Notes under the pieces: model-generated
What the model saw: the letters and a program-made list of their open reading frames with translations, nothing else
The model's database searches: none
Told to the model about the DNA's origin: nothing
Part shown: positions 1,424 through 60,394 of the stretch, in pieces
How the letters are laid out: each line of letters begins with the position of its first letter
Numbering within the stretch: the first letter of the stretch is position 1
Made by a program: the position numbers and the translations under genes
Assembly: GCF_040958095.1 (NCBI RefSeq)
Contig: NC_091220.1
Span: 22,172,383-22,236,382, forward strand
DNA length: 64,000 nucleotides
Reading direction: 5' to 3'
From: Procambarus clarkii
Lineage: Eukaryota > Arthropoda > Malacostraca > Decapoda > Cambaridae

Positions 1424-2582
1424 CTAAAATTCAGGGATGGTCAACTTCTTGGGCTGCTCCCAAGAGAACTGTTGCCGTCCAAAATGTCCATAACACGAGG
1501 TATCACTGTAAATTGGTCTCTTTAAGCCCAGCTCCTTGACAATATGTCCTAGTCGTAGATCAAAGTTGTGGTTAACAATCTTCAGAAGCTGTTTTGATGT
1601 GTACTGTGAGGTGCCATAGTGGAAGATGCTGATGCTTATGGGGTGCACAACACTAAGATACCTGAACCAAACAGCGTCTACATAATTTGTTTTTCACCAA
1701 TGACTTGGCAACCCATCGGGCGGCATAGGCCGCTGAGCGGTCAATCTTTGTGTAATCTTTGCCAGAGAACGCTCCCCCGCCGTGAGCGCCCCACCCACCG
1801 TAAGTGTCAACGATGATTTTCCTACCAGTTAGCCCAGCGTTACCTTGAGGTCCACCCATGATGAATTCTCCGCAAGGGTTGATGTGGTATTTCGTTTGAG
1901 TATCTATATATTTTTCAGGAATAATGACCTTGATGACCTTCTCTATAACCTCGTCACGCAAAGCTTCGACAGTAATTTGTTCCGAGTGCTGTACAGAAGC
2001 GACAACAGTGTTCACTCTTTTGGGAATAACAGCTCCTTGATCGAAGGCATACTGGCATGTGACTTGAGTCTTACAGTCAGGTCGCGCCCACCAGAACGTC
2101 CCATCTCTTCGCAGCTCTGCAATCTTCTGATTGAGACGGTGTGCCAGCATAATAGTTAAGGGCATGCACTCATCGGTCTCATCAGTGGCATAACCAAACA
2201 TCAGTCCCTGGTCCCCTGAACCAATGTTGTCATCACTGCGCCCGATGTGTACACCATTAGCAATCTCCGCACACTTTTGCTCCAGGGCCAGAAAAATATT
2301 GCAGGTCTTGTAGTCAAAGCCCTTTCGTGAATCATCAAAACCAATTTTCTTAACAATATCACACACAATTTGTTGATAATTAACTTGGGCCTTGGACGTA
2401 ATCTCCCCACAGATCAGGATCATACCAGTTTTGGTACACGTTTCACAAGCAACTTTGGCGTCAGGGTCCTGGCTAAGATGGGCATCAAGCACTGCGTCGC
2501 TGATCTGATCGCAAATTTTGTCGGGGTGGCCTTCGCCTACGCTCTCACTGGTGAAGAGGAACGTCTCATGATCTCCATCCAT
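1424..2582 (-). pseudogene. S-adenosylmethionine synthase (methionine adenosyltransferase) retrocopy
   Basis: Methionine adenosyltransferase makes S-adenosylmethionine from methionine and ATP. The frame starting at 2582 carries the family landmarks in order: [50 protein letters not shown] and [15 protein letters not shown]. It has no introns. After about 309 codons (near 1653) a short deletion replaces the conserved segment after LVQVS with a stop and shifts the frame. The family C-terminus then continues in another frame to a natural end at 1424 (HYGTSQ, CYGHFGR, PWEQPKKL). Coverage is nearly full length. An intronless copy with a disabling deletion is best explained as a processed pseudogene of the host gene. 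A CCCCAG just upstream of the ATG could be a remnant splice acceptor, so a once-expressed copy is possible. Confidence 0.88.
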
Positions 2583-3170: not shown

Positions 3171-5726
3171 TTATATGTTGTTAACAAAAAGCTGCTGTAC
3201 GTGTGGACATTTGAATCCAAGATGCTTTTTCTCTATTATTAATTCTCTCCCGCAACCACCACATTCTCTTTTTTTTTTTGGTTCATAATGATTGAGATGA
3301 CGATGATGTTCCCTAATAATACTTCTAATTTCTAGAAGAGTCTTGGGTATGAAGTATTCAATATGGTCTCCCTCAGCGCCTTCAGCTGCCAACACATCTG
3401 CGCGTTCATTTCCATAAATTCCAACATGGGAGGGAATCCACAGGAACTTGACAACTCTTCCCTGGTTGGTTAGTACCTTCACAACTCTCTTAATTTCAGC
3501 GACTATTGTAAGATTCTCGTCCCGATCTTTATTTAGGCTTTGCAGTGCTGCTCTCGAATCAGTGCAAATCACTGCACCAGTAGTATTCTGTTCAATAATA
3601 TACCTTAACGCCATAGCAATGGCAGTTAACTCTGCTTGTGTTGAAGAGGTATAGTTCTCAATGCGCGCTTTTTCCTCATTTTTTGGTGGAAAAAATACAT
3701 CATCCTTCTTAATTACCGTGTATGCTGCACCCGCCCGGCCATTAATAGGATTAGATGACCCATCATTGAAGATTTGATGTAGTTCATCTTCAGCTTCATT
3801 ATAAATTTCCTTAAGATACATGTGGCTTATTTCTTGGGGTACCATGTTGGTTTTTTTCTTTACCATATCATTGATGATAATCCTGCACGAGTCATTCAGG
3901 GGATCCACCCAGGGAGGTAATCTTTCTACAGGCATGAGCTCACGAGCTTGTTGAAGTAGGTGAAGATTTTCAAGGTAGCCGACTGCTCTGTGATGCCATT
4001 TTTTCCTTCTCTTGTTTCCCCCTGAAAGTAGCACAGAGCTCAATTTTTTTTTAGCCATGTCATTATAATGGGGATCTCTGGCAATCCTAATTGCAAGCTT
4101 AGCATTCAGTTCCACAATTCTTTCTTTAATACTGGGAAGGGATAATAACTCTTTTTGTAGATTGGACATTTCAGCAGTTTTTGTCTTTGGAACTCCAAGA
4201 ATGATTGAAATGGCTTCATCCTGTATGCTTTCTAGCCTATTCATATCACTTTGTGAATAAGTACATAAAACAGGTGCTGCATTGTCAATGACAGAGCGTA
4301 CATAGTTTGTGTACATCATTTTAAGTACAGCAATAGAGGCTCCATGGCCATCATTCCAAGTCATAGCTTTCAGTTTCAGTTCCCTGAGTCGACTTTTACA
4401 TGTTCCTATGATTTGATTGAGCTCCTCTTTCTTTCCCTTGTTTGAGCCGACGGTGACGCCAAGGTACCGATAGTGGTCAACCCATTCAAGTGTTACACCA
4501 TTAATTTGCAGTTCATCATTTTCTCTCCGCTTGCGATGGGAGTATGCTTTTGTCTTGTTTGTGGAGAGAGTGAAACCGAGCTCAATACATTTCCTTCCAA
4601 GGAGTTCAATGGCCTGTTTTATTTTATCAAAGGTGGGAGCTTGTATTAGGACATCATCTGCATATCCCACTTGTTGTGTTCCTTCAGGAAAATCAATATT
4701 GGCAATTGCATTCATAAGTACATTGAATAGTGTAGGGCTTAAGACTCCTCCTTGGGGGGTCCCGAGTTCCATATTCATTGTTCTTGAGATTGCTCCATTG
4801 AAGTAGACCTTAGCTTTCCTCCCTGTGAGGTAGTCTTCAATCCATTTCATGAGTCTCCCCTTGACACCCATACATGCAAGCTCGTCCAGGATCGCAATTC
4901 CCTGGGCTTTGTCGAAGGCTCCTTTTATGTCAACAAATACAGAGTACCTAGCCGTGTCATTAACCAGGTAATTAATTATACAATTGGCTGTGCTCCGTCC
5001 TTTGACATATCCATTGACTCCTTCCCCAAACCTACCTATTTTGTGTAACAGTCGTTTTAGGATGATCTTTTCCAGCATCTTGCAAGTACATGACACGAGA
5101 CTGATAGGTCTGTAATTGCCAGGGTCATTGGGTTTTGGTATGGGAACAATTTTGGCGTGTTTCCATTGTGTGGGCAGAACTCCATTTTGGAATGATTTGT
5201 TAAACAATAGGAGTAGTGGATTCCCAGACACATCACACAGTGCATTAAGTATGTCGTAGGTAATGCCATCCTCACCAGGTGCTGTAATTTTACCTCTCTT
5301 AACAGCCGCCCTTACTTCCTGGGCTGTGATAGGTTCTCCATATTCGTCCTCACTAGACTGTGCTCTCGCTATTCTGATTCTTCTGTCATTCTGTAGCAGG
5401 AGCTGTTCCATGACTATTTCCGTTGAGAGGGAGGAGGAGGATGCTGCCTTGCTCCACATGTGAATTAATTCTTCAGCTTTACTCTGTGGATCTTTGCCTC
5501 GAGGCATTTTCTTCCGAGGGGGTCTTCGCCGAGTCGTACGGCGCTGAATTCTAAGACAACTTTCAATTTGGTGATTAAGGTCATCAACAAATGTATCAAT
5601 ATCTTCTGGGATTTGGTATTCCCTGAACCAGTCATTCATCCTGTCTATGAAGATTGGCTTCATATCTCGTCTGAGTGATAACCACCTTCTTCTTTTATTT
5701 GACTCATTCTTTCTCAAATTGTTCAC
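3171..5726 (-). mobile_element. Non-LTR retrotransposon ORF2: reverse transcriptase plus RNase H, 5' truncated
   Basis: An open frame of 851 residues. The reverse transcriptase part shows APGEDGI, NYRPISLVS, VFVDIKGAFDKA, GTPQGGVLSPTLFN and the catalytic GYADDV. It is followed by an RNase H domain with NDGSSNP, SSTQAELTAIAMAL, VICTDSRAAL and WIPSHVGIYGNERAD, and a Cys-rich tail (CGGCGREL). RT plus RNase H in this order fits the I/Jockey-like LINE group. The N-terminal endonuclease is absent, so the copy is 5' truncated. The long open frame suggests a recent insertion. A decayed relative lies at 33060-33425. Confidence 0.92.
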
Positions 5727-11387: not shown

Positions 11388-12916
11388 TTATACTTCCAAA
11401 AAACTTTCTTCTAACTTTTGAATACCCAATATAATATTATCTGTTTTAAGCGGATTCGCTCGAGATTTATCTGGGCGATGTTGGCAAACCTTTATAATGT
11501 TTCTGTTGTTATTTAACAACACCTCATATATCTCACCATCATGAAAATTTTCAAATGGTAATGATGGGGATATTGATGGTTTGGATATGCTTGATTCCCC
11601 TTGAAAGAAGATGTAATAAGGTGCTAAATCATTTCTAAAATGGGCTCGTAATACTTGTAATATATTCATCCTTTCTGCAGCATTAAAAGCCGTAGAGACA
11701 ATGTCTATAATGGCAACTGGTCGATAATTATGTACCATAAAGGAAGATGAATTGTTGTTTATAGAGTATAGATCAGTTTCTACTGTAAAAATGAAATCGA
11801 TCAAAGAATGGAGAATATGTTGGGGTATTAAATGTGGATGTGATGTCGATAACATCAGAGGATTTGAAATAACAAAATGACTTGGGTAAAAACGTAAAAT
11901 TCCATTATTACCATCCAACTTAGGGAATATATAAACACGAGATTGATTCAAACTCTCAGACGGAGTTGGATGATGGGGAGTACTATCTTCATGAACATGT
12001 TGATACATACTTAGATTTAAAGGAAGTTGAGCTTCTAATCTCCAAGAAGTATACCAGTAAATTGAAGTTCCCGAAGGCGGTGATATTTTAGGTACACCCT
12101 CAGTATTCATTGTTAAATCAGGTCCCGTCTCACTTTGTTGTAAATCTTCTGTTTCTAAAGTGAAAGGGAATATTTGGCTATGATCATTAGGAATGTATCG
12201 ATGATATAGAACTGTTTTGGTTGAATAATCTAGGAGGTAAGATGTTTTTATACAAAGATCACTTCCATCAAGAAAGCTAGCCATACCTACTAACATGCTT
12301 TCCCCACTGCTATCATCACTACTATTATGTTGTATATACTGGGCATCGTAAAAAGATTCCCCTTCATCACTAATATAAACAAATTCTAATGTGAGGGAAT
12401 CTAAACGAAAAACCACTTTTTTGTCACGGAATTTCTTATATTGAATAAAATATCTATTCTGTTGTGGTTCAATAATTAGGCGATAGTCTCCAATCCGCAT
12501 TTCTATAACCCTAGAAATATATTGCATGGATAGTTCACCCAAGGGAGCTAAATGAGCTTGAATAAGTGGATGTGCATATCCACATGACGCCGACATTCAC
12601 ATTCTTCTACAAAATGAGTATTTTTACAAATTAAATTTTGGTCAGTATTCTGTCCTACCGTCATTATAGCCTCAAATGAAATAGAAATTTTATGAGGGGG
12701 TAGGTTACGATTAGTCTTGATACATGAATGTATAATTTCCGTAGCAGAATACAATTTACCATTGTTTTTAAACATCGAATATTTATGAGCTGCATAGGCC
12801 ATTAAAATTTTATTTTGTAGAATTTCTCTACCATTTACAAAAATAGCATTTGCTAATATTTCATCGATTATTAAATTACATTTAACTTTCATTTTCGGGT
12901 TTAATTTTAATATCAA
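11388..12916 (-). pseudogene. lef-4-like: LEF-4-like mRNA capping enzyme (triphosphatase-guanylyltransferase), frameshifted
   Basis: Two overlapping frames, 12548-12916 and 11388-12596, together cover about 510 codons, close to the size of baculovirus-type LEF-4. The C-terminal frame has a guanylyltransferase motif I, PKLDGNNG, with the candidate GMP-accepting lysine at residue 226. It is followed by VETDLYSI (motif III-like, about 272), DGEIYEVL (motif IV-like, about 353) and a C-terminal IIKVCQHRPDKSRANP that fits motifs V/VI. Upstream, beta-strand segments with paired acidic residues (RVIEMRIGDYRLIIE) suit an RNA triphosphatase tunnel. A frameshift in 12548-12596 separates the two parts. 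LEF-4 caps viral late mRNAs as a subunit of the viral polymerase. A polymerase-subunit gene at 15.5 kb supports the call. Another capping or ligase-family protein is the main alternative. Confidence 0.62.
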
Positions 12917-13280
12917 TACAATTTTGAATTATCCAGTTATAGACTAGTATACTTGAATGTTTAAGACACTCTAACTGCCATTTAATATCGTCGCTTGATG
13001 ATTGATGTCTAAGAAAATATTCAAATAAAAAATATGGATAACTTTTAGAATTAACTAGCTTAGTTAAATCTTCACAGAGTTTTATTCCATAAACTTCTGT
13101 AATTATTTTATGTATTGTTTTCAAAAGGTATTTCAAAACGGTTGAATGGAAGGAATTGAAGAGTTTGATCATATCTACAGTTTCATCGTCCTTTAATATT
13201 GGTGGTAACTGTATTTTTTGTTTTTTTGGTGATTTTGATTTCATATGTTGATTTACAATACTATCCTTAATACGATTCAT
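12882..13280 (-). CDS. Unassigned viral-like protein, 132 residues
   Basis: Intact frame starting MNRIKDSIVN, overlapping the start of the capping-enzyme gene by about 35 bp on the same strand. A Lys/Pro-rich N-terminus is followed by a helical region. No known motif is seen. The tight overlap and shared strand with its neighbours are typical of compact viral genomes, which is the main reason for the viral assignment. Confidence 0.5.
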   Translation of the reverse strand: MNRIKDSIVNQHMKSKSPKKQKIQLPPILKDDETVDMIKLFNSFHSTVLKYLLKTIHKIITEVYGIKLCEDLTKLVNSKSYPYFLFEYFLRHQSSSDDIKWQLECLKHSSILVYNWIIQNCIDIKIKPENES

Positions 13281-13345
13281 TATGAAGAGAAAAAATGTTT
13301 AAAACTGCTTTCCCTAAAATTTCAATTTTAATTAATTCATCCTCT

Positions 13346-13627
13346 TCATTTGACAATATATGTTTTTTTTTTTCTTTTTCTTTTGGGTGATGGAACAGTT
13401 GACAATGGTACATTTTGACTTCTATTATAATAATAGTCTAATATATTATTAGTAACAGAATCCAGTAATGTATTTACAAATTTAGAGGGATCTTCTTTCA
13501 TTTTTAAAACAATAAAATTACTATCAACATTTTTATCAGACCCAGAACCTAGATTACTTAATGGTTCAATCACCTCCTGAAGTATGTCATCGACAAAGTC
13601 TTTACAAATTTGTTGACGTCGATTCAT
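13346..13627 (-). CDS. Unassigned viral-like protein, 93 residues
   Basis: Intact frame starting MNRRQQICKDFVDDILQEV and ending with a basic KRKRKKK stretch that resembles a nuclear localisation or nucleic-acid-binding tail. It lies 66 bp upstream of the previous gene on the same strand, completing a three-gene minus-strand cluster. No family is recognised. Confidence 0.45.
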   Translation of the reverse strand: MNRRQQICKDFVDDILQEVIEPLSNLGSGSDKNVDSNFIVLKMKEDPSKFVNTLLDSVTNNILDYYYNRSQNVPLSTVPSPKRKRKKKTYIVK

Positions 13628-13639
13628 TGTTAAGTTTTA

Positions 13640-14640
13640 TAAGACTAAAAAAAAAAAGAATTAATCTCCTTTTATGCCTTTCTAAAAAAAAAATACTATA
13701 GAAATTTAGTTTTCTATTTACCATTCCAAATACAATTATTTAGGACAAAATTCCAATAAAACCATGATTATATATGTTCGTTGCCATTTATTTAAATTGT
13801 TCAATTGTATTCGACCAAACTGCCGAATTTTATATTGCTTACTAAAATACAATATAACTAGAATGTGGAATGAAATCAGTCTCTCTATTTTTTCAAGCTC
13901 CTTCACTCATATATTAAAAATATTTCTATCAATCTTAAAGTACTATACAAAACAGTATGTTATCATTCAAATAGCCATTGATTGAGGTGCTTATCAGAGT
14001 CAGTCTCTGAAAAATCTTCAAATCAAGTAACATGAAGAAAAACACCATAACTAAGTATTTACAATCACATATAGTTGGGAGAAGAGCTGCTTCTGTGAAG
14101 TTCAGAAAGACTGTTGTTGGACTTTACCTCTTTAACTTCATCTGTTCACCAATCCCTGAAAATTAAAATAATGAATTTATGATTTTTCAAGGATTTTCGT
14201 AAACCCATGAAACCAGGAACATTCATTTTTAATAGCTTAATTTTCAACAAATTTCAAATAATAAATATATTTGGATGTCCAAAACTAAAACTAAAATATA
14301 CACTTACTTACCACAACCATTTCCTTCTGATAAACTTTCTGTGTCTGAATTCCATAATATCAGTGACGATGAATCTTCTTGGTTCTCTGGCGCAGGGAGA
14401 GGGTTGTACTTATCTGATTAATATTGCTGTTGTTTGATGCTTTAGGTAAGGTTGTGACGAGCTGCGATGTAAGGTTTTTGGATAATGAAGCTGTCGATTG
14501 AAGGTGAAGATCATCATCCTCCCATTTATGAGGGGATGAAGGTGAGGCAGAATTGGTAGTTTTGTTAGAGATGGGGAAAGATTTTGGCACCTTCCCTAGC
14601 CCTCACTCAATGATGATAACTTAGAAGATGAGAAAGAATA
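13640..14640. other. Non-viral-looking spacer
   Basis: AT-rich DNA between the minus-strand cluster and the plus-strand viral genes. It contains a small open frame at 14031-14165 (MKKNTITKYLQSHIVG start) and a Ser/Thr-rich minus frame at 14360-14590. Neither shows recognisable domains or conserved signals. Confidence 0.3.
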
Positions 14641-14655
14641 TTTGCATTGAGCATC

Positions 14656-14845
14656 AAATAATAAACTTTAACTTTCCTCATCGTATCCCTTCTGCCTACC
14701 CACCACCCACACCATCCCTCCTGTCTGCAGCAAGTACACACTCGTTTGGGTTCTACCTAAATAATAAACTTTACTTTCCTCATTGTATTCTTCCTACCTA
14801 CCCACCACTCACACCATCCGTACACACACTCGTGGGTTCTACGTA
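14656..14845 (+). repeat. Imperfect 102-bp direct duplication
   Basis: AATAATAAACTTTA, then a C/T-rich tract with CCTACCCACCAC and ACACCATCC, then TGGGTTCTAC. The block occurs at about 14658 and again at about 14760. Confidence 0.8.
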
Positions 14846-14879
14846 ACTTTTTTTAAATACTATAAAAAATAGGAAAACA

Positions 14880-15278
14880 GTGACATTGGACACACTAAGT
14901 ATACCACCCAATTTAATCCATGGAAATTCTATACGAACAAGAAAAAGAAATCTCACACAATCTTCATCACCATCGAGAGAAAATGAAGATCCATTAGAGA
15001 CTGAAATTATAAGTGACCATCAAAATGCTGCAATAGAAACTGAAATTCCTTCTTTTAAAACAGAAATAAGATCATTAAAAGAAAAGAAAATAACTTCATA
15101 CATAAATTATCAGATGGAAAAAATATTAATAATAACTATTTTTATTCTATTTTTAGTAAGTCTTTGGGAAAATAATTGAATTTTGGGGATAATTATTTTA
15201 CTAACTATGTTTTTGATTAAACCTATCCTTAGTAAAATAATAGCAGGATGGCTCATTGATTTTCAAATCGTAACGACT
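14880..15278 (+). pseudogene. Small membrane protein, viral-like, in-frame TGA
   Basis: The frame opens without an ATG (nearest possible start is a GTG at 14880), so the 5' end is lost or mutated. It encodes a polar N-terminus with repeated ETEI motifs, then a transmembrane helix (ILIITIFILFLVSLW). After a TGA at 15177-15179 the same frame continues into a second hydrophobic helix (ILGIIILLTMFLIKPIL) and a basic end. Two adjacent helices suggest a C-terminally anchored envelope-type protein. A natural stop at the TGA is possible. It sits head-to-tail with the polymerase gene. No family is recognised. Confidence 0.42.
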
Positions 15279-15508
15279 AAAAAAAAAAAAAAAAAAAAAA
15301 TATATAATTGTTTATAGGCTGAATTAAAATTAAATTGTTACACTTTTATTTTATTTACGTTTTAAGACTTTTGTTGTAATAAAAATCTCAACAAAATCTA
15401 TTTACTATGTATTTCAATTCCAGGGATAAAAGATACTTACAATATATATATTTTTTTATTAACTAAAGTATAAATTTCATTTCATTTCCATATAATTATT
15501 ATATAATA
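15180..15508. other. AT-rich leader upstream of polymerase-like gene
   Basis: Contains a poly-A run at about 15279-15300 and TA-rich sequence directly before the ATG at 15509 (AATAATGATTAAC). No gene is seen beyond the tail of the preceding membrane-protein frame. Confidence 0.4.
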
Positions 15509-18225
15509 ATGATTAACACAAGAGGTATTTTCAATTATCGGCATCGACAATGGGCTTTACCTGGTGGAAACCTTAAACCCTGTCCTAAATGTTCGATCAT
15601 TGATTCAGCCAATGCTGAATTAGAATTATTTCTTAGACACAGTCTCTACAATAAGCTTCAAATCGAAAATAATAGTTTTGAAAAGTTATTTAAAATTTAC
15701 CCTGGCATAACATTTCATCTGAGTAATCAACCATATCTACTAAAATCCAAAAGTGATGAATCCCAATTTATAAAATATTATCTAGATCGCAAATTGGTAC
15801 TAGGGGTAGGACTACAACTTCCTGAATGGGATAATGACAAGCGACTAGCAGATTATGCCAAGTATAATTTTGCAGTGCCTGTAATGAAAAGTGGTCAAAT
15901 GTGGCAAATGTTGGTAGAAGATCCTGAGAGACCTATTGATTATGAACAATGGAAGTGCTGGCAAAGTAATCGGCTAATCCCCCCAAATACACATTTTCCG
16001 TTTAAATGTCTTATATGTGAAAACTTTCCCTTTGACGTTTATCCGGGCAATTTCATTGTGAGTGAATCTGTATGTTCCATCAAGTCGATAATATGGCCAG
16101 ATCGTCGACGTCCTCATTTTAGCAGAAAAGAAAAAGCAGTTATTATTTATGAAGAATCTAAGATTAAAAAATGGCCTTTTCTCTCTTCCTATATAAACCA
16201 GGATATTAATCATTTAGGAAATATGGCAATCTTTACAACTGGTGAAATATTTATTAATTGTTTTTTAAATCTAGCTATACGCAAAGTAAATGCTACACTA
16301 CTCCATAACAAGGTGGTTAAAATTTTGAAAGATCTTTACCATTCACTTTCTCAAGAAAATTTAACAGTTTTAATGGAATATTATCGATTAAAAAGGAGCG
16401 ATGCTAACAAAAATAATCTTAAAATTCTGGAAAATTATACATCCAATCATAATAATAATAATAATAATATGAATGAAGGGAACAATGATATAAGATTAAA
16501 ATTATCAGGACCACGAGTAGCTATGATTGCAATTAATCCTTTGAAAGTTAAAGCCACTGCTATTCGGTGTGGTCATATTGATGAGAGTATTACGCAAACA
16601 AAAATATTAAGCAATTCTGCAAGTATAAATACTTTAAATGAAAATAATGGTGGTAATTCATTTAATAATAGCGGGAATAATGAATGGAATAAAATTGGTC
16701 GGTTTAGTCGGAATTATTCATCTAATTCATATGCTAATATATGTCTGGTGGCATGTGGATTACAAAAATTATTGCCTAAAGATTTCAAAGCCAAAGAGCC
16801 TAAATCTATAACGGTAAGTGAGGTCGGTTTCATTGATTTACTCAATACACCTGATACTCATCAACGATGTGGTATCATATTAGAAATGATACCTGATGTG
16901 ATAATCGCCTCTACCAGCATGTGTAATTCACAACCTGATAAATTCTTATTTACATATCTCCCTCAACTAAGACAAGTGGGAAATCCTTCACAACTTGATC
17001 AGTTAGAATCTAAATATGTCTACATAATTATTCATAATAAACTGTTTAATTTCCCATTAGATTCGATCAAGAATGGTTCTGCAGCTCAACATTTTTTTCC
17101 TCATTTGCCTCTAGTTCAATGGGAATATGTTTGTTTATTTGGAGTAGACAATTTATACCGATTTGTTCAATATATTTTGAAATTAAATATCGCCTGTATA
17201 GAATTATTAGAATACAAAAAAAATCAACTGTGGATATTCACCAGTCTGCCACGTATGTCTTATAAAATTTTACCCAATGGCCAACTCTATACGTCTAAGG
17301 AAATAGACACTTTTCAAATGGAGGCTAATCCATTTTTTTATTTACCACCTCAAATGCAACCTCAGATTTTTCTCAGAAAAGAAAATAGTGATCTCAAAGA
17401 GGATTTTGAATTACTCTATATTGGTTATGACCGGGAAAAAATACCTAATATTATGGGCCAAATGCTCGAGCGATTAGCCGTCCTAATGCTGCCCATCCCC
17501 CTCGAATTAGTAACAGTCTGCAATTGTATCGTCATTATGCTGGTATTTCTGTCAATACTCATTCTGTAGGTGAAATTCATCAAAATACAGTTATTCATAC
17601 TTTATACACAACATCTCGAATGAGTAAACTTTTACCCATTCCTTGTCAAAATCCTATGGTGGCAGTAGTAAACTGGCACAATCCCGAAGACAGTATTACA
17701 GTTAAACAAGATAGTATAGACTGTGGGTTATTTTCAGGTGTTTCTTATGAAACATCAATTGTTCGATATAATTATGGATCAGGACAGAATGCACTACCAA
17801 CTTTTTGTCAGACCTATTTTGATCAGCATACCCCACTTCAACGTGGTGTTCAGTTGGGAATTTTAAAAGGGGTTAATCCCAAGTGTCAAGAAGATAATAG
17901 TTTGCTTAATTTTACAAATGGAGAAATAGAATTCGTTCACATAGATGCCAATACTCTTGCTCTTATTTGGAATGGTAAAATTGGGGATTTAAAAGAGCCT
18001 ATATATGACGATTCTGTTCCAGTATCCACAGGGACGAAGAATGGAAAAGGGAGTCGAAATGACTACCGAGTTACAGTAAATGATCCACACCACCCTTCCC
18101 TTGAACGGCAACAACGGTTGAAGAAATCAGCTATAAAAACTGGCTCTTTGCCACAAGGAAAAATAACTGCAGTGACTGGAAATCACCTCAGCTATAAAAA
18201 CTGGCTCTTTGCCACAAGGACATAA
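15509..18225 (+). pseudogene. lef-8-like: RPB2/LEF-8-like DNA-directed RNA polymerase subunit, frameshifted and 3' truncated
   Basis: Two overlapping frames (15509-17569 and 17524-18225) cover about 900 codons. The second contains NPEDSITVKQDSIDCGLF (from its residue 53). This corresponds to the highly conserved N-x-EDS...S..D.G.F signature of second-largest RNA polymerase subunits. It is preceded by TLYTTSRMSKLL and followed by a block matching the next part of the subunit. A one-base change near 17470-17490 shifts the frame just before this block. The sequence ends before the C-terminal catalytic region, so the 3' end is missing. An Asn-rich insert lies near codon 313. In baculoviruses and nudiviruses this subunit (LEF-8) forms the late-gene polymerase with LEF-4, LEF-9 and P47. 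Strong divergence from cellular RPB2 and the nearby capping gene favour LEF-8. An NCLDV-type subunit is the alternative. Confidence 0.7.
18128..18220 (+). repeat. 32-bp direct repeat at the 3' end of the polymerase-like gene
   Basis: CAGCTATAAAAACTGGCTCT plus 12 further bases occurs at 18128-18159 and 18189-18220, identical, with a 29-bp spacer. It marks the point where recognisable coding similarity ends. Confidence 0.9.
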
Positions 18226-19343: not shown

Positions 19344-19347
19344 TTAT

Positions 19348-20921
19348 CCCTTAAACTGCGCATGGCGTATATATACGCCCTGAGTAACATGTCCCATGGT
19401 GCGCATGGCGTATATATACGCCATAGGGTGCCAGGCCTGATTCAAATGGCCCGCGGCTACACAGGGTTCACAGTAGCTTCCTCAGGGCTCTTGTAAACAG
19501 ATGCCATTTAAAAAAAAAATCGTGGGCAATATTCTCAGGTGTGAGAGGCACAGTACTGTTGGAGCAACCAAGGCCGGCGTACGCAGCATGAGCGAACAGC
19601 ACTGATGTTCAGCTTGTGACCACAGCATCGCCGAAAAATGTCAAAATAAATATATAATTGTTATTATTTAGCGATGACAATATTACAGATGACCAATGAC
19701 TGTGATATAAATAACCAGGGTTGTGATTATAGCAGGATTGTTGTAATAATTAGCGCTGTGGGAGGAGTGATGCTGAGAGATGGAGGGAGACAGCATAGTT
19801 TACTGACTGTGTGGCTAGCTGTTATTGTTTGCATTCACCATACCAGGTCAGTGGTTCTCTATGGTGAACACAAATGTAGATACTTATATATAATGTGTGT
19901 ATTAGTGTATTAACAGCAAAAGGATTATGCTGGGAGGAGCCATATGGGTGACGGAGGTGACGTCGTCTGCACGATTTGTCTAGCTGTTTAGAGGGTGGCC
20001 ACTATGCTCTTTGGGTGCACTACAAGCTTAGGTGTACAGTTACGGTGCATAAAACATGTAGATATTTATATATAATATGTGTATATAGGGTAATAACACT
20101 GCAAAAGTTATTGTTGGGGGAGAAACTTTAGTGCGTGTGACCTTGAAAGAGTGAGGGGAGCCACCAGCCGCCATCTGTGTATAGCGTCGACTCTTAGTGC
20201 CTGAAATAACTATATCAGCTTAGCTGTACAGTTGTGGAGAACAAAATATATACATACTTATATATAACGTCTGTATAGTGTAATAACACCACAAATGGTA
20301 TTGTTGGGGGAGAAAGTTTAGTGCGTGTGTTGAGGGAGTGGCAGCGAGTGGCTGGCTGGTGTGTGGCGGTAACTCCTCGTTGCTTTTCGACCCTCAATAC
20401 CAACTTAGTGGTTCGTTATGGTGACCAAAACATGCCAATACTTATATATAACCTGTGTATAGAGTGTAATAGCAGCAAAACTATTTGTTTATTGTTTTAT
20501 AAACATAATAATTGAATCACTAATATGCACATCATACTTTTGAGTATAGCGATTATTAAGCACTTTTATTATATAAATATATTACAATACACACTATTGA
20601 ATAATATTACTGCAAAAAAACTAAGAAAAAATCAATCGGAGACATTGAAACAATTAGGTAATAATATCTTTGTGGCAACTCCCATCTGTCAACGCGGGTG
20701 ACGCTGACTGGGTCTGACGACCGCTCTGTCAACGCCCACTTTTTGCCAGACTTCCTCGGTCAATTGCGCCCAAAATATGTCACCTACGATTTTTTTTTTA
20801 TTTTTTCTGTGCTCAGGGGACACAAATTAACATGTTTAGAAGACGAAAAAAAAAAATTTTTTTTTTTTTTTCTTGCGCACAGGGGTGTAAATGTCCCAAG
20901 GACCCCTGAGCAGTGTAAGGG
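19348..20921 (+). mobile_element. Non-autonomous DNA transposon with CCCTTA terminal repeats (piggyBac-like ends)
   Basis: The left end CCCTTAAACTGCGC and the right end GAGCAGTGTAAGGG are inverted repeats (11 of 12 outer bases match). Both ends are flanked by TTAT (19344-19347 and 20922-20925), a likely 4-bp target duplication. CCC ends and a TTAA-like 4-bp target are typical of piggyBac-type elements. No transposase frame is present. Near the left end CATGGCGTATATATACGCC occurs twice and is itself palindromic. The interior holds the tandem array listed next. Confidence 0.72.
19750..20500 (+). repeat. Tandem array, four units of about 185-190 bp
   Basis: The landmark ACTTATATATAA followed by a GTGTAATAAC(A)...GCAAAA block recurs at about 19879, 20063, 20250 and 20439. 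Each unit also contains GTTGGGGGAGAAA or a variant. It is internal to the transposon. Short open frames across it are not conserved between units. Confidence 0.8.
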
Positions 20922-20925
20922 TTAT

Positions 20926-24300: not shown

Positions 24301-24524
24301 ATTCACTGTGTCACTGTCCACATGATAATCATCTTGCTGGACGACAGCTTCTAATTAAACGTTCTCATGTGGATGTGATTATTGGGACTGTGACAACTGA
24401 ACAAGGATTGCGTAATGGTATCTATAATACTGGGCCGATTACTTGCCAATCAGTCACACGTAGCTTCCGTGAATATCTGATAGCTAAAAAATTGTATAAT
24501 AAATTTGTACAAAATTGTATTTAA
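21335..24524 (+). pseudogene. Unassigned viral-like gene split by a LINE insertion
   Basis: The 5' half (21335 to about 21675) begins MVSSSKKQQQKIVKKK and contains YLRDPVHTYDALIRMNV and MFGHPVI. The 3' part (about 24309-24524) contains CPHDNHLAGRQLLIKR and ends KLYNKFVQNCI. A reverse-oriented LINE of about 2.6 kb separates them. Both parts are on the same strand, AT-rich and open right up to the junctions. I infer one gene of about 185 codons. The family is not recognised. The CPHDNH...GR segment is the best handle for a search. Confidence 0.55.
21676..24308 (-). mobile_element. CR1/Jockey-like LINE copy A, 5' truncated, inside a viral-like gene
   Basis: Reverse transcriptase blocks on the minus strand: GGNPADIID...YPLYQK, then PQGSILGPLLFLIYINDLPN, LFADDTTLIYSN and QLQIDNINISNKNDGKFLGL. 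The frame is broken between about 23110 and 23411. The 3' end is a TTTAT-type simple tail (21677-21706 in plus orientation), preceded by the family mark TGCCCGAAACGCTG on the element strand. The 5' boundary at about 24308 is deduced by comparison with copy C at 52.8-54.1 kb. Confidence 0.88.
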
Positions 24525-25128: not shown

Positions 25129-26456
25129 TTAAGAAAAATATACTTTAGTTACGTGACTAATTAAATTGCGACATATTGGACAGTTACTAAGTTCTAAAAG
25201 ACACAATTCACAGACACAAAAATGTTGGCAGGGTAAAATGAGAACACAACGTTCTTTATCTTGGCAGATATTGCAGCGTGTATTCATTAAATTCTTATCA
25301 TGTTGACAATTGGATGAAACTGTGGGTTGTTGACGTCCTAAATTCTTTATAGTAAAGCTCAATATCTGATCACATTTGGGATCAGATATACAATAAGTAG
25401 TTGTATTAGGCTCATTATTAGTCCTGGTTAATGTTACTGTGTCATTATTCATTGAGGTTAAACATATATTTTCAACTTCATCTTTTTCGTTTTGATTATT
25501 TTCTTCTATGATTTTAACCCTTTTAAATTTTCTTTGGTTAATATATAAATATCTTGTTATAATAGTTATAGCTTGATCATATGATTTAAATGATCGTCCA
25601 GAGTATATTACTACCTCTTTAAATACTCTTTTAACAATATTGCGTTTGTAACTTTTAGATAAAGTTACTAAAATATCTAATTTGTTCATCATTTGCATAA
25701 TTATATCATTAGAAAATATTTTGGGGGGATATTTAGTGATTGTAGATGAACGTATATTTTTAATAAAATCAGGCCCTTTCATGATCAATATATAATAACA
25801 TTGTGTTGACCAACGCCCATGTTCTATCCATGGATCATGACCTTCTTTCCAATTTCGAAAATGCATATTGCAATAGAAACAGATTACTTCATCTCCACGA
25901 GGTGGTTTTTTATAAAAAAACCCAGCTTGGGCTAACTCTTTTCGGCTGGGATGTTTTATTGAAAGTGGCCACGAGTCTTTGAAACTAGACAAGCGAACTC
26001 TAACCTCACTATATTTTTCATGATGTGGAGTTTTATGCAAGAGTATCCCCTTGGGTAATTTATTTTTTGATCTAATTCAAATTCCAAATCTTTATTATAC
26101 TTAATATACTTGGATTCTATGAGATAAGATGAAAATTCAATAGGAATATTACCTACTGGTTCGCCCTTCAAAAATGGACATTCAGGGCTTATTCTCCTAT
26201 GAAATTCACTAAGTTTAATAGTGTTGTTATTTAAAATGAGTATTATATCTTCATTGAAATAATCGTCATCATTTAAAATATCATCCCAAGAATTTACATA
26301 GACATAACAAAATGCACATGCGCATTCTATTCCTTTTTTCAGATAGAAGAAGCCATTAGTTACCAACTCTTTGGGCTTTGGGTTACTTACAGGCCAATTA
26401 ATAAATGTTTCTAATCGCTCTTGCTCGTATTTTAAATCATTGTCTATACACAGCAT
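25129..26456 (-). pseudogene. Viral-type inhibitor of apoptosis (two BIR domains plus RING), frameshifted
   Basis: IAP proteins block caspases and act as ubiquitin ligases. The first frame (25956-26456) holds a BIR with C47xxC50, H86 and C93. The spacing before His is longer than usual because of an acidic insert. The second frame (25129-26040) holds a canonical BIR (C54, C57, H74, C81), a Lys/Asn-rich linker and a C-terminal RING (CNICQDKERC, PCQHFCVC, CPIC). The two frames are offset by one base. The likely site is the run of six T at 26063-26068 in plus orientation. There are no introns and the base composition matches the viral genes, unlike the spliced IAP gene at 33.5-35.3 kb. Baculo- and nudivirus-type viruses commonly carry such genes. 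Confidence 0.82.
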
Positions 26457-29451: not shown

Positions 29452-32049
29452 TTATCTCTTTTTTTGTGTGGTTGTTTTCTCAACAGTTTCAGGCGAAGAA
29501 ACTTTCTGAGAGGCGATTGCTTTTAAAATGCTGTCATCACCTAATACACTTTCGTACTTAACTTTTAGGTTTTTAAGGAACCAAGATTTTTCTGCTTCCA
29601 TATTAGCCTCGTGTAATAACGTAATCGATTTTAAATTCTTCTTTTCGTTATCGATAGACACTATTTGATTATTATCCTCATTGTTGCTTATAGAATACGT
29701 ACCATTTATCAGGGTTAATTTACTAATATTGTATAGAATTGGGAAAACGGGTGCTATTTCTATAGCTTCATTTATCATCGGTATGTTCAATATTTCAGAT
29801 AGCATATCTTGGTGGTTATATATTTCTCTTGAAAAATAAAGGTTTAATTGAATGGAACGCCGAAGAATATTATCGTTTATTACCGTGACAAGATTCTTAT
29901 AGAACTGGGCGCAGAATATAAATTTGAAGATATGATTTGAAAGTGAAATAAATAATTGCATCATTTCAGATTTCGCCATTTCATTCTTGCAAAACATTTT
30001 TCTCATTGAGAGTTTTTCGAATGCTGATCTTAAATACTTATTGTTGCATGTCCCGGCCAAGTAAGCATCGAGCTGAGTAGTGACAGCTTGGATGATTAAT
30101 GTGAATTTATTCATTTGAGTTTCTTCATATTCTATGGGGTCCACCGAAGTCTCATCATGGTTAATCATCGACAAATGCATTCTTGTCTCACTTAATTCTA
30201 AAAGCATTTGTTTGTTGGAATCCTGGAGACTAGCATTTGTCTGTTGAATGGTCAACAGGTTAGAAGTTATTGTTTCATTTTCTTCTTGTAAGGTCTTAAC
30301 ATGTAAATCATTTTGTTGTTGTAAAGCCAGTATTTCATGAATAGTATCAGAAGGAGACTTACGAATCACGTTCAAGATAATGTAATAAAAGCGTTGTGCA
30401 TTATTTGCATTCAAATCTTGCCTTATTTCCTTCTGGAATAATGTATATAGAATAGTAACGAATGCATAAACTTTTATAACTTCCTCATTCGTTCCTTTAT
30501 GATCTTTTTCCAGGTCAACAATTCGTTTGGTTATAATTTCTTGAACTTAAACTATTGATGCCACTGCGTCTATTAACAATTTAGCAACATAATTAGGTTC
30601 GTCTAATTGGCGTTTTAAATGATCATTTTCATTTACATAGGGCATTATTTGACGTTCGTGTTCATATACTGTTTCATCGATAATATTAGTTTTAAATTTT
30701 TCTAATATTTGATTAAATAAATTTCTTTCTTCCTCGTTAGTAAAAATATTAAGTAAATCATTATTTTGGAGTGGTTCAATATTATTAATATAATAATTTA
30801 AATGGGAAATCCTGTCTTTAATGTCCTTTTCACGTTCTTGGTAAATGTAGTTTTCACGTTCGGTATTCAACTGACTAATGAACCGATTTATTATTGCTTC
30901 AATTTGTGATTTTCTTGTTTCCTTTGATTCATCATCATCATCTAAAGGAAATATGCTTGAAAAACAATGAATTATATCGCTATTCGATAATGTAGGTTTT
31001 GTATAAAGTCGCTCTAATGTTTCAATATTATATTTATTTACTTCATTTATATTCTTTACTAATATATTATATTCATCATACTTAATTTGTTTAGAATTTT
31101 CACAATCTAGTAGTTTTTGTTCACATTCCTCAAGATAATGTTTTTGGGATATTAATAGCTTATTATATTCTTCTTGGTCTGATTGTTTATCATAGTTACA
31201 TTTTTGTAGGGCTTGTTGGCATTCCAGAAATTGCATATTTTGGATCCTTATATCGTTTTCACATACAGCTAATTTCCTATTTAATTCTTCTTGTTGTTGA
31301 CGACTTATAGTTAATTGTTCATGTGCACTTTTTAGTTCCTTTTCGAGTGCAACGTATTTGGATCTTATTCTAGTATTATTTGAATTTATTAAATCGGTTA
31401 GTTTTTCTTTTTCGTCAGCTAAGTCTTTTATTTGTTTGTCTTTGTCTTTGGAGATATGTTGAATTTGTCTATTTTTCTCATTTACCAAAAATGCATATTC
31501 TGTTTCATACTTTTTCTTTTCATCATCGTATTGGATTCTAAGCTTCATTAATTCAGTATTATTTCGATCTTCTAGATTATTTTTCAATTTATTTTGATTA
31601 TCTTGAAGAGTTAAATTTTCCTTCTTTAAATTCTCTATTTCATTTTCTTGGTCTCCTAATTTCTCTGTAAGCTGCACAATAGTAACTTCTAAATCTCTCA
31701 CATTTGTATTTAAATCTGTTATTGTGGCATCTTGATATCCACATTTAATTTCTAATTCACTTTTTTCATTCTCGCATTCATTACATTTTTTATTCAAATG
31801 AGCTATTGTTTGTTTTTGTTGATTCTGACTCTTAAGAGGATATGTTTCAGTTATTAATTTAATATATCGATCAGAGATAGTAAACAAATGAAGCATTTTA
31901 TTCAATAATAAAATTATTCTTTTATCATCATCATTCACAACAACAAAATTGTTAATAAGAGTTTTTATGAATATACGTTCTCTCAAACCCGAGGAACCAT
32001 TGTCTGGGAATGTTATAGTATTCAAGATTATTTTAACAATTTCACTCAT
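29452..32049 (-). pseudogene. Long coiled-coil protein, copy A, one in-frame stop
   Basis: An 865-codon frame interrupted only by a TAA at 30547-30549. Frame phase is the same on both sides. The N-terminal 70 residues are globular (RIILLLNKMLHLFTISDRYI). Residues about 75-330 form a long, heptad-rich coiled coil (DLEVTIVQLTEKLGDQ, KDKDKQIKDLADEKEKLTD). A helical middle and a C-terminal domain follow (FIFCAQFYKNLVTVINDNI, QKVSSPET). The whole length is paralogous to 43724-46477, with matching blocks at both ends. Such a large filament-like protein could be a tegument or structural protein, but I do not recognise the family. Confidence 0.65.
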
Positions 32050-33463: not shown

Positions 33464-35333
33464 CTATGATATAATTACTTTAATAGTATATTTTATCTCA
33501 GCTCTGCAAATTGGACATGTGGATATGTTTGATGCACATTTGAAACAAGTGCACATGTGATTACAAGGAAAAAACATTAACTCACTCTCATTCTCCATAC
33601 AAATCTTACACTCAATCACTCTGTGTCTAATTGTACCTTCTGACTTTGGGAGAGCGGCAACTTGATCAGTTATTCTACCAAATAATGGTTGTGGGTTAGA
33701 ATCACCAGACATTGGTGGGCTTGGGACAACATCAACTTCAGTCAATGTCAATTCATCAACTATTGTAGATTCTACTTGCTGATTGGGGTAAGAAGCCAAC
33801 TGAGTTCCATCAGACATTGGTTGGCTTGGGACAACATCAACTTCAGCCAATGCCAATTCATCTACTATAGGCTGTATTAAAGTTGTAGATGATTCTACTT
33901 GTTGGTTTTGGTCAGAAGCCAACTCAGTTCCATCAGACATTGGTTGGCTTGGGACAACATCAACTTCAGCCAATGCCAATTCCTGTATTAAAGTTGTAGA
34001 TGATTCTACTTGTTGGTTTGTGTCAGAAGCCAACTCATTTCCATCAGACATTGGTGGGCTTGGGACAACATCAACTTCAGCCAATGTCAATTTATTTACT
34101 AGACGTTTTCTAACTTCGTCTTCTATGTACTGTAAGACTGCTTCAATAAATGACTCAATGTTAAAGAAAGGTAACCCCTTCTCTTTGAGTTGATTATGAT
34201 ACGTTGTCATCACATGATCTTCCTGGAAACCCATTGAAATAAGGTGCTTAGTTATGTCTAGTTCCTTAATAAGTTTGTGTTGATCTTCATTGATATGGGT
34301 TATTGAAGGGTTTGTCTCATAAGGTGGCCTTTCCCCTTGAACCTGAAAAAAAAAAATAAAGTTAATGTTACAAATGGCTTTTATAAAGATTACAATAATA
34401 ATAGTCAACCTTCATTTCAAGTTACTGGAGCTGACATACCTGATCAATGAATTCTTTTCCTTTCGTCAAGAAGAGGAAGGTACACTCTGGGTACCAGCGA
34501 GCATGTTCATCCCAAGGTATATCATCAGTTTCCCAGTTTCGAAGTCCATTCCCACAATGATAACAGAGCACATGATCACTTAAACCACAATAGAAGAATC
34601 CAGCTTCTGACAATTCAGTTGGTTTCTGTGTTACACGTTCAGACCAATTGTTAAAGCTTGCTAGGCGACTTTCAAGTGTTAAGTAGTCTTCTCGCTTGGC
34701 GATGGTATGCTGGTGAACTCCATTGTCTGTCATAGGACTTAGACCACAGACATCTATTCCTTGTCTATAGGACGAATTTTTACTATTTCTCAGTGGAACG
34801 GAATAACCCTCGAATTTTTCATTAAATATCAGTGGAAAATTTCCCACTGGTTGGTTTCGAATGAATGGACAATGGGGAAAGTGCCGCTGATGTTCGCCTC
34901 TGGGAGTGTCTCCTCTTTCCCAGGAACCAACAATGCCTTGACAAAAGACACAAGCAATGTGGTCATTTGTTCGCAGGTAGTAAAAGCCATCACGAGCCAA
35001 ATCAGATGGTTCTAACCATTCAAGTGGCCAATCTATGTAGGTATTCAAACGTTCCTTTTCAAACCGTAAACTGTCATATGAATCAAACTTCTTAGAAATA
35101 GATCTTTTCACGTTCTGATTAAATGTGCATTCTGGTTTCTCTTTCTTATGTAAAGCAATGATTCTAATTTCATCTTGGTTTACGTTCGTGGCATCAATTT
35201 GAAAATGGCACATTGAACATTCTAAAAGATTTGCTTTATGAGTATAATAGAAACCCGCCTTTGCAAGTACATGACTGTTTACACTGAAGTTACAGTCCTT
35301 AAAAGTCTCCAAACGATTTTTTTCTTCTCTCAT
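33464..35333 (-). CDS. Inhibitor of apoptosis, three BIR domains plus RING, two exons
   Basis: Exon 1 is 34440-35333 and ends at AG|GTATGT. The intron is about 97 bp and ends in TTTTTTTTCAG. Exon 2 is 33464-34342. The frame is kept across the junction, giving about 590 residues. BIR1 has C39, C42, H62 and C69. BIR2 has C128, C131, H148 and C155. BIR3 has C257, C260, H277 and C284. Exon 2 has a UBA-like helical segment (MGFQEDHVMTTYHNQL), four copies of an LAEVDVVPSQPMSDGTELAS-type repeat, and a C-terminal RING (CKICMENES, PCNHMCTCFKC, CPICRAEI). BIR1 lacks the usual Trp region and is diverged. The layout is that of animal IAP/XIAP proteins, cytosolic caspase inhibitors and E3 ligases. The intron and intact frame indicate a cellular gene, possibly functional. 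Confidence 0.88.
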
Positions 35334-35990: not shown

Positions 35991-38926
35991 CTAACCACCT
36001 AATTCTTCTTCTTCATCATCTTCAAAATTGTCGGTCAAATTTTTTTCAAAAAGAAACCTGCTCCATATTGTTGGAAATTGGGGCCTAATATCTTCCACAG
36101 CAATATGTTTTTTTTCTACTTTTTCATTTAGCCACTGTAGAAAACTTGTCCCCATTTCCTGAAAGTAATGATAATTATTTATTAGTGTTATAAATCCCTT
36201 ACTTTTCAACCTAATTTTTCAAATAATTAATTTCTTAAGAGGGTCTTTTTATGAAAACAAAGTAGGTAGGTGCTTTACCCATCATACTCACCTTACATCT
36301 TTGTAAAATATAAATCGAGAACTTGAGCCATTTCTGAATTTCATTTAGTCGTAATTGAGTTAAGTGAATATTATTCTCTAAACTCCAATTTTGCTTGTTT
36401 TTTTTCTTGGATAAAAAACAATAAACTGCTTTTTCCCTCAAGGCTCTAAGTATTACATACCATCTTGTTTTTACTTTTATCATTCCAATTGTTTCTTCAT
36501 TCTCATTTAGAAAATAAAAAACTTCACCTTCTTTGTAAAGATCACTTCGCACCTGTAAAAAATAATTTAATAATATAGTTTCATAAAAGAAATTGTATTG
36601 AAAAATGTAACAATATAAATTGGCACTTCTTTGAACAATAAACTTTTTGTTTGCCTACCTTATTCTGGTGCTTTACTACATCTTTAGCTTCAATTATTGA
36701 ATAGGCAGGAGATGTAAAGCCTAATGCCGTAAACAGGTTGAGTGTGTAGTGTGGAGGTAATGCAAGAAGGCTAGTCTCTTCATATTCGTTGTACAATGGA
36801 GTAAAACAGATAACGTTGAGTTGATGCTTATCCAAGTGACTGAGGTTAACAATATGTTGGTTGTCAGGTTGAAGAAGCTCACACACAGCTGTACATTTAG
36901 TATAGTGTAAGATACTATATACCAAATGTCGATTCATAATATCCATATTATTCAATGTATCCCACAGTGATCTGGCCACAACCTTAGCAACAACATAACG
37001 TTCTCCATCATACCGCTCAATGTCTTCCCTTTCTCCAATTAACATATGAACACTTTTACTCCCAGTAATTAAAAAAAAATTACCATTAATGTATCTGCCA
37101 CTGAAATGAGCTGATTCACCATTCACTTTAGTCATACAAACTGCTTTAGAAGTAGTAGTACTGGGATCTTCTAAGCAATATTGTTTCCATAGATCATTTG
37201 TTTCAGGTTGTTTATTATCCTCATCACCAATATCACCAGTAAATTTTTTATTGGCAAAGATCACTAAATCAAACTGTCCCTTAAACTCCAAGAGTGTTAC
37301 ACCACGAGGAACATTTTTTCGAACTTCCGGGTCATTGTTGTACATTGTGTCATCAGGGCCATAGCAGTTGACCTTTATGAGGGCAGCATACTTGGCCCTC
37401 TCCTCTTTCTCATCTACATTAATGACCTTCCAAATGCCTCCCAACACCTCAAACCAATCCTATTTGCTGACGACACAACCTTCATTTACTCCAGTCCTGA
37501 TCCCCTTGCTCTAAATGCCACAGTATATACTGAGCTAAATAAAGTCCATCTGTGGCTAACTGCCAACAAACTCACCCTTAACATTGACAAAACTTTCTAT
37601 ATTCTGTTTGGCAATAAATCCTCTAATCAAATAAATCTCAAAATAAACAATACCCAAATTTGTAACAAATTAGATGGCAAATTCCTTGGCATTCTCATTG
37701 ACCACAAGCTGAATTTCCAGGGACACATTCTAAACATATCTAAAAAAGTTTCAAAAACTGTGGGCATTCTTTCTAAGATCAGATATTATGTACCACGCCC
37801 TGCCCTGGTGACTCTCTATTACTCCCTTATCTATCCATATCTCAACTATGGTATTTGTGCTTGGGGCTCTACTACCCAAAATCATTTACGTCCTCTAATT
37901 ACTCAACACAAAGCTGCTATTAGGACAATATCAAATTCTGGCCCCAGACATCACTCGGTACCCCTATTCAAATCCCGGAATATGTTAGACATTAAGTCAC
38001 TGCACATTCTCTCATGTGTACTATACATATACAAAACGCTAACTTGTAATGCCAATCCTGATCCCTAAAGCTTCATAGAAGGTTGTCACAGAACCCATGA
38101 GCACCACACCAGAAATAAATACAGTTTTGATATTCCTAGAGTACGACTTAATCAAACCAGAAATGCTCTACAAATCAAGGGGCCCAGAATGTGGAATGAC
38201 CTTCCCAACCATGTTAAAGACAGTACCTCTCTCAACCAGTTTAAGATAAAAACTAAACACTACCTAATAAATTCCCTGTAACCTACCTCACTCCTCTATT
38301 GTCAACCCATGTCCGTTATTTTCTTTTTTTTTAATCAACACTGTTTGTCAACCTATTGTATTTGTGCTGCTTTTTCAGTCATGTTCCCCCTTTTTTTTTA
38401 TCTTTATTTGTATTTGTTCTCAACACTTTTTATTCTTTATGCTCAATTAGTATTAAGTTCTAGATATTAATGTTTTCTTGCCCGAAACGCATTGCGTAAT
38501 AGTGGCTTTAGGCATTGTATGTACTAGCTCTATCTATATATCAATCCATTAATGTAACATCACTTGTATGTATATACCTTACCTGAATAAACATCTGAAT
38601 CTGAATCTGAATCTGAATATGTCATGAAGAATAGCAGGGTCGTCTTCAGGGGATAGGATTCCATGTGGGACATTTGCACTTATTCTTTTTATCTTCTTTT
38701 TTTCTTTCAATGTTTTTAAAAGATTTTCATACCTGCAAACAAAAGAAAAAAAAAAAAAAGTAATAATTTATTGGGGTATGGATATTATAAAAATATATAT
38801 ATGATATATATTATTAACATATTATAATAATGATACTTACAATTCCGAAGACTTTAAACTGTTTTCAGCATAACAAATCATCTTCTGAAATGATGCTCCA
38901 AATGTATCTGGAAGTTTTTCTTTCAT
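35991..38926 (-). pseudogene. RNA-ligase-like nucleotidyltransferase gene, four exons, split by a LINE
   Basis: Exons by GT-AG signals are E1 38841-38926, E2 38732 to 36659 (interrupted by a LINE at about 37394-38619), E3 36292-36552 and E4 35991-36158. Phases agree at every splice site, giving about 454 codons. E2 carries KVNGESAHFSGRYINGNFF, a motif I (KxNG) of covalent nucleotidyltransferases, and ITGSKSVHMLI. E3 carries EGEVFYFLNE (motif IV-like) and GMIKVKTRWYVILR (motif V, K-x-K). The set and spacing resemble T4 Rnl1-type RNA ligases, which seal RNA ends through a lysine-AMP intermediate. E4 ends in an acidic tail. The LINE sits in coding sequence, so this copy should be inactive unless the LINE is removed. 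Family assignment is from motifs only. Confidence 0.68.
37394..38619 (+). mobile_element. CR1/Jockey-like LINE copy B, 5' truncated, in ligase-like exon
   Basis: Begins within the reverse transcriptase (LLFLIYINDLPN, LFADDTTFIYSS) and continues through ILSKIRYYVPRPALVTLYYS and YPYLNYGICAWGST. It ends with TTGCCCGAAACGCATTGCG and a tail of repeated AATCTG (about 38592-38616). The frame is closed before the end. No clear target-site duplication is visible. Confidence 0.88.
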
Positions 38927-55251: not shown

Positions 55252-55366
<115 letters not shown>

Positions 55367-55394
55367 AGAGTGTGTACATGTATATATAACATTA

Positions 55395-55545: not shown

Positions 55546-55549
55546 AATA

Positions 55550-55930: not shown

Positions 55931-55975
55931 TAGACATGTGTAGTATATATATAAGCTTGTAGTGGTAGGCTGGAT

Positions 55976-57062
<1,087 letters not shown>

Positions 57063-60388: not shown

Positions 60389-60394
<6 letters not shown>

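Follow-up and report, generated by a model that had tools for sequence, protein, structure and literature searches.

A stretch of 64,000 nucleotides from the genome of the crayfish Procambarus clarkii (contig NC_091220.1, positions 22,172,383 to 22,236,382 of the forward strand; hereafter, the window) carries the remains of two genes, coding for a capping enzyme and for an RPB2-like RNA polymerase subunit, that very probably belong to a large endogenous DNA virus present in many copies in this genome. A preliminary description of the locus had placed a capping gene with PKLDGNNG and HRPDK motifs some 3 kb from an RPB2-like gene with an NPEDS...CGLF motif, and both open reading frames (ORFs) are indeed found there, divergently oriented and with 2.9 kb between the capping ORF and the start of RPB2.

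The capping-enzyme and RPB2-like genes

The larger, C-terminal part of the capping-enzyme gene (11388..12596, minus strand, 402 aa), recognized by its PKLDGNNG and HRPDK motifs, by the family alignment and by the Pfam model mRNA_cap_C, comprises a guanylyltransferase domain, with the KLDG lysine motif and the RPDK motif, and a partial triphosphatase domain. An N-terminal piece of the same gene (12548..12916, minus strand) contains a triphosphatase-like ExE motif and matches the N-terminus of a relative (P0010). The window frame is interrupted within this N-terminal part, and the frame of other copies runs to 513 codons. Three features are kept by all members of the capping-family alignment (n=12): ExE...RR, both the lysine and the glycine of KxDG, and RxDKxxxN. 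The mRNA_cap_C model is matched weakly by 12/12 members (best E 1.8e-4) and LEF-4 by 0/12 at E<=10, in a Pfam scan that had no LEF-4 positive control. Pfam and NCBIfam scans matched no methyltransferase domain in the capping protein, and no IMG/VR relatives were found for the capping alignment. One relative of the enzyme (P0011, 63% identity) is recorded for Astathelohania contejeani, a microsporidian of crayfish; contaminating host DNA may be its source, or else a virus from a different crayfish.

The N-terminal part of the RPB2-like gene lies at 15509..17569 of the plus strand (686 aa, of which residues 1-652 match other copies) and is followed by a middle part with the NPEDS...CGLF motif (17524..18225, plus strand), which matches RNA_pol_Rpb2_6 with an E of 0.0022, under the cut-off of that model. 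Near 17.5 kb the window frame diverges from the other copies, and about 1.1 kb of another copy is lost after window position 18128, so that, by position, the RPB2 C-terminus with its GDK...QKG motif is gone. Both genes are therefore broken in the window copy. The family set assembled for RPB2 consists of 13 relatives from ENA/lgn sources (taken as metagenomic) and one crayfish copy. RNA_pol_Rpb2_6 (best E 6.5e-13) and RNA_pol_Rpb2_3 are each matched by 13 of these 14 members in Pfam, and none of the 14 matches LEF-8 at E<=10, in a scan without a LEF-8 positive control and in a profile library that presumably holds a LEF-8 model. The members share an E, a D and a late R in all 14 cases, and the GDK and QKG lysines in all 13 that reach that far, residues that we take to be equivalent to catalytic ones of Rpb2. 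The LEF-type machinery proposed in the preliminary description has thus not been borne out. Best profile matches to RPB2 and capping families instead of LEF ones are the very outcome that it had considered adverse to its reading, yet the genes are of viral and not of cellular origin, as argued below.

The RPB2 family is isolated. The nearest members from outside P. clarkii share 33-44% identity, and in the profile search the 13 ENA/lgn members are followed by a gap, the next hit, with an E of 1e-6, being an RPB2-like protein from a eukaryote. Nine proteins were found with the RPB2 piece, two of which are P. clarkii 'uncharacterized proteins' that cover 24 and 14% of the query at 98 and 99% identity, respectively. 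Neither query P0007 nor the RPB2 alignment has relatives in IMG/VR.

Copies, linkage and associated genes in the crayfish genome

Searches of the genome (4.03 Gb, 2308 contigs) returned 68 matches for the RPB2 piece, 104 for the capping piece, 150 for RPB3 and 93 for a family-B DNA polymerase (polB), the last of which may include a few host exons; all these counts are lower bounds, and some matches are fragments of one copy. As judged by eye, at least 19 of the 68 RPB2 matches have frames of at least 1,179 codons free of stops in the matched part, and some 40 of the 104 capping matches retain a 513-codon frame without stop. Intact copies thus exist in the genome and the window copy is dead; the earlier designation of the locus as a fossil fits the latter and not the many similar copies with open frames. 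Pooled pairwise differences among 20 RPB2 loci, a biased sample made up of the best-scoring ones, amount to a pS of 0.0065 and a pN of 0.0012 (synonymous and non-synonymous differences, respectively). Amplification looks recent, and the closeness of the copies points to a recent spread, by germ-line reinfection or by replication and reintegration.

The arrangement seen in the window recurs across the genome. A divergent RPB2 match lies no more than 9 kb away from 50 of the 104 capping matches (other arrangements: 0, 0 and 16), and RPB3 is found at 20-60 kb, on one side and strand, for 49 (other arrangements: 1, 0 and 9), with both genes so placed in 33 cases. In conjunction with the consistent profile matches of both families (12/12 and 13/14), this shows that the observation goes beyond chance. 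The 16 and 9 exceptions probably represent, judging from their layout, a single structural variant with an inverted capping gene. In those 16 matches the capping gene and the nearby RPB2 lie on the same strand. We also observed a tandem array of five capping matches, spaced by 2.957-2.960 kb, on contig C21 (about 3.6247-3.6378 Mb). The polB gene, identified as a family-B DNA polymerase by a Pfam match with E 1e-29 for one frame and without IMG/VR relatives, is oriented oppositely to the nearest capping match and lies 30-60 kb beyond it for 20 of the 93 matches, and it lies within 120 kb for 27. The four genes, for the RPB2-like subunit, the capping enzyme, the family-B DNA polymerase and an RPB3 of the type found in animal Pol II, recur in the same order.

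Such linkage bears directly on the suggestion that the two window genes are simply degenerate paralogues of the crayfish capping enzyme and RPB2. Pfam does name both genes after cellular families, as that suggestion would have it, and yet the profile search yielded no close cellular relative, the identity to the nearest family members apart from P. clarkii is that of distant kin, and the head-to-head pair recurs dozens of times, polB and RPB3 keeping fixed distances from it. Given this linkage and the number of copies, we reject a host-gene origin, which seems scarcely credible.

The 10-kb piece between polB and the capping gene of one copy, L054, contains three informative minus-strand ORFs. 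The first codes for RPB3 (Pfam RNA_pol_L, E 1.8e-15) and looks animal, its match to Pol II RPB3 in PDB having an E of 7.3e-61 and that to a viral RPB3-11 homologue one of 0.03. The second, of 1399 aa, has a Walker motif and matches the TIGR01613 P4-family primase C-terminal model (E 5e-9; 35.4 bits, under the cut-off of 108.7), with no meaningful Pfam match; we identify it as a D5/P4-type primase-helicase, seen in this one copy. The third ORF, adjoining the helicase gene, encodes 135 aa, with a hydrophobic segment followed by a Cys-rich part (11 cysteines), and matches Pfam PIF3 with an E of 0.0011 (19.6 bits, cut-off 22.2), without support in NCBIfam or PDB. This match is suggestive and not proof, because 67 protein entries, some proteins twice, were scanned against Pfam. 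On the plus strand of the same piece (L054:2-2550) lie threonine-rich tandem-repeat ORFs, the last of which ends in a C-terminal hydrophobic segment and is, by eye, glycoprotein-like.

Based on sequence and position, the capping, RPB2, RPB3 and polB genes, together with the helicase known from L054, can be read as parts of one element. We conclude, with a probability of about 0.85, that the window covers part of a degenerate copy of a large double-stranded DNA (dsDNA) virus, no less than about 67 kb long, that is multi-copy in the crayfish genome, much as endogenous nimaviruses are in shrimp, and that represents an apparently undescribed lineage. The preliminary description was therefore right in seeing here viral DNA with an RNA polymerase and capping pair in a crustacean. 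Our literature search, which left most subscription papers and preprints outside its reach, found no paper describing this element.

Several observations weigh against this conclusion. No capping match is present on the contigs of as many as 47 of the 93 polB matches, and for 66 of the 93 there is none within 120 kb, which short contigs may explain in part. The excess of synonymous differences derives from the biased set of 20 best-scoring loci, the helicase and the PIF3-like ORF are known from one copy only, and the RPB3 could have another role. AlphaFold models of the RPB2 and capping proteins, with predicted local distance difference test (pLDDT) scores of 39 and 54, respectively, are too poor to use. 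The NCLDV capsid model Capsid_NCLDV (PF04451; NCLDV, nucleocytoplasmic large DNA virus) has 0 matches in the genome, its control being silent too. Finally, the RPB1/LEF-9 subunit was not found, so that the viral polymerase is incomplete as far as shown here: the 4 Gb contain only 8 instances of a degenerate LEF-9/RPB1 active-site motif, none of them beside a copy, and DxDGD was not seen in the ORFs of more than 80 aa in 208 kb scanned. The LEF-9 motif was also found on two contigs in IMG/VR. The partner subunit may lie in the unread part of the element or be very divergent, or the largest subunit of host Pol II may take its place.

Extent and further genes of the window copy

The extent of the element was examined by comparing ten 10-kb stretches that flank five other copies with the window. 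The window matches other copies in order, blockwise, from 1397 to 42563, with private insertions at about 19347-20922, 21677-24320 and 37378-38618. On the capping side (1.4-11.1 kb), four of the five pieces match nearly end to end at 95.6-96.1% and the fifth in parts; from 11.5 to 17.4 kb it is the capping and RPB2 genes themselves that provide the match. On the RPB2 side (17.4-31.1 kb), the pieces, not all of which cover the whole span, match in blocks at 94.9-99.4%, the identity at 18.1-19.3 kb being 85-86%, and one further piece, L053, carries the match on as far as 42563, its blocks being 84-95% identical. A broken RPB3 remnant of the same copy lies 24.5 kb to the left of the window. Since the match reaches 42563 on the other side, this copy of the element, counted with its insertions, measures no less than about 67 kb.

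Several genes travel within the shared stretch. Between the capping and RPB2 genes there are two small minus-strand ORFs (12882-13280 and 13346-13627; best Pfam E 0.055, function unassigned) and, on the plus strand, a small ORF with a hydrophobic segment, as judged by eye (14880..15179; 133 aa in another copy). IAP genes lie on the minus strand at 25129..26456 (BIR and RING domains), in a part of the window that other copies share, and at 33464..35333 (three BIR domains; RING), where they are common to the window and L053. Also on the minus strand are two proteins of unassigned function, coiled-coil-like by eye (29452..32049), with paralogues at 43724-46477, and an RNA-ligase-like protein (36581..37447; DUF7920, E 5.2e-6, 26.2 bits against a cut-off of 27; RNA_lig_T4_1, E 0.059). 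The window thus has two paralogous gene sets, 29452-32049 with 43724-46477 and 3-1199 with 46658-47656, the proteins of which are 41-59% identical. Beyond the right-hand limit of the match there are long tandem-repeat tracts, of AT and other kinds (55223-57059 and 60391-63491), and the end of the element may possibly lie near them. One short tract of the telomere repeat, a target of some nimaviruses, is found there at 61986-62005 and is uninformative.

Two other passengers of the shared stretch are an S-adenosylmethionine synthetase gene (1653..2582, minus strand), which has a 388-aa frame in another copy, and a non-LTR (long terminal repeat) retrotransposon ORF with reverse transcriptase and RNase H (3171..5726, minus strand, by eye), which stands at the same site in other copies and has therefore travelled with the element. 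This cargo, the isolation of the RPB2 family beyond its 13 ENA/lgn members and the animal-looking RPB3 would all suit a viral lineage of its own, or a virus that has become a giant transposable element, with replication and transcription genes drawn from several sources. Such an origin appears unlikely without being far-fetched: the relatives in public data, the origin of which is not established, may be free viruses, and no integrase or transposase was identified, though no search was aimed at them.

Viral affinity and transcription

For the virus inferred here, we tentatively favor, at somewhat less than even odds, a new family-level lineage of Naldaviricetes, on the nimavirus side or as a basal branch, that unlike nimaviruses has RNA polymerase subunits and a capping enzyme of its own. 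To our knowledge, no other endogenous large DNA viruses of decapods are as well known as nimaviruses. A naldaviral placement is suggested by the PIF3-like ORF, Cys-rich after its hydrophobic segment, beside the helicase of L054, by the triphosphatase-like and guanylyltransferase motifs of the capping enzyme, which is presumably of LEF-4 size, and by the presence of a family-B DNA polymerase, a trait of Naldaviricetes, linked to the capping gene in 20 of 93 matches. The IAP genes, the high copy number and the crustacean host likewise recall the endogenous nimaviruses (PMC10871703), for which the accessible text reports 22 to 477 copies per haploid crustacean genome. Against this placement, the PIF3 match falls below its curated cut-off and receives no backing from NCBIfam or PDB, PIF2 has 0 matches in the genome with a control equally silent, and the LEF-8 and LEF-4 families are unmatched. 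The naldavirus assignment of the preliminary description therefore stands as possible and unproven, resting on one weak PIF3 match.

An endogenous nucleocytovirus, perhaps kin to a crustacean family that we take to be the Mininucleoviridae, seems rather unlikely. The D5-type primase-helicase, polB, RPB2 and capping enzyme are all NCLDV core genes according to the accessible text of PMC6960288, which describes that family, and vaccinia rpo132 is the best PDB relative of the RPB2 family profile (E 2.5e-11, 45.1 bits). Archaeal RpoB, however, scores alike (2.7e-11, 44.9 bits), so that the likeness to Nucleocytoviricota, visible in the C-terminal catalytic block GDK...TSQKG, is weak and no closer than that to archaea. 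The D5-type helicase expected of Nucleocytoviricota is present as a sub-cut-off TIGR01613 match in one copy; of the pair RPB1 and RPB2, the latter is present and the former was not found by motif in the 4 Gb and 208 kb of ORFs searched. The capsid was not detected, with the silent control already mentioned, and the capping protein has no methyltransferase match. As far as the accessible text of PMC6960288 goes, the family shares crustacean hosts, polB, D5-type helicase and RPB2 with the element, but it has a capsid gene and RPB1 and lacks the capping enzyme that the element possesses; the word 'endogenous' does not occur in it.

Lefavirales (baculo-, nudi-, hytrosa- and filamentoviruses) resemble the element in having an RPB2-type subunit and a triphosphatase-guanylyltransferase, and the capping enzyme of the element is akin to LEF-4 in layout and size. 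They differ in that the element gives no LEF-8 or LEF-4 family match and no LEF-9 active-site aspartate motif, although a divergent or unread gene is possible. Cytoplasmic linear plasmids of yeast have a capping enzyme too, and are cytoplasmic and in yeast, in contrast to an element in the crayfish genome. These virus-like elements, compared here by description only, have a two-barrel RNA polymerase of their own (PMC6211774). Table 2 of PMC10271883 does not list RPB3 among the lefaviral core genes, and leaves unstated the type of its helicase, that of the element being D5/P4-type. The endogenous nimaviruses (relatives of Majanivirus, Pemonivirus, Clopovirus and Whispovirus; PMC10871703, PMC7016691, accessible text) are, like the element, large, multi-copy dsDNA with IAP and captured eukaryotic genes, whereas nimaviruses have no lef-4, lef-8 or lef-9 according to the accessible text of PMC10271883 and the element has RNA polymerase genes. 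The words 'RNA polymerase' and 'capping' are absent from the main texts of PMC10871703 and PMC7016691, in which no crayfish element appears.

In the virus that we envisage, the DNA would be copied by its own polymerase and helicase, and its genes would be transcribed by a multi-subunit RNA polymerase of its own, with RPB2 providing half of the active site and the captured RPB3 filling the alpha-like position in assembly. The capping enzyme would take off the 5' phosphate and add guanosine monophosphate, as LEF-4 does for the baculovirus enzyme. The presence of replication genes alongside transcription genes points to a virus that produces its own late mRNAs and caps them. What this scheme lacks is the RPB1/LEF-9-like partner, a role that the largest subunit of host Pol II might fill.

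It is tempting, if improbable in its entirety, to picture an unknown and perhaps still active class of crustacean dsDNA viruses in which PIF-type entry genes, as on the naldavirus side, are combined with NCLDV-side genes for a D5 primase-helicase, an RNA polymerase with RPB2 and RPB3, and a capping enzyme. Having captured a Pol II gene from an animal, and so gained or replaced its alpha-like subunit, such a class would constitute a living link between naldaviruses and NCLDVs, with a hybrid viral-animal polymerase, spreading as a giant mobile element. A virus with an animal-derived RPB3 would, if true, have an unusual hybrid polymerase. At a practical level, dozens of similar viral copies can confuse both diagnostics and annotation in crayfish, as illustrated by the two P. 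clarkii proteins filed in NCBI as 'uncharacterized protein'. A shared origin of naldaviruses and NCLDVs has been raised and left open in the accessible text of PMC10271883, and the combination of a nimavirus-like life style with RPB2 and RPB3, a capping enzyme and a helicase of D5 type in one element would be relevant to that question.

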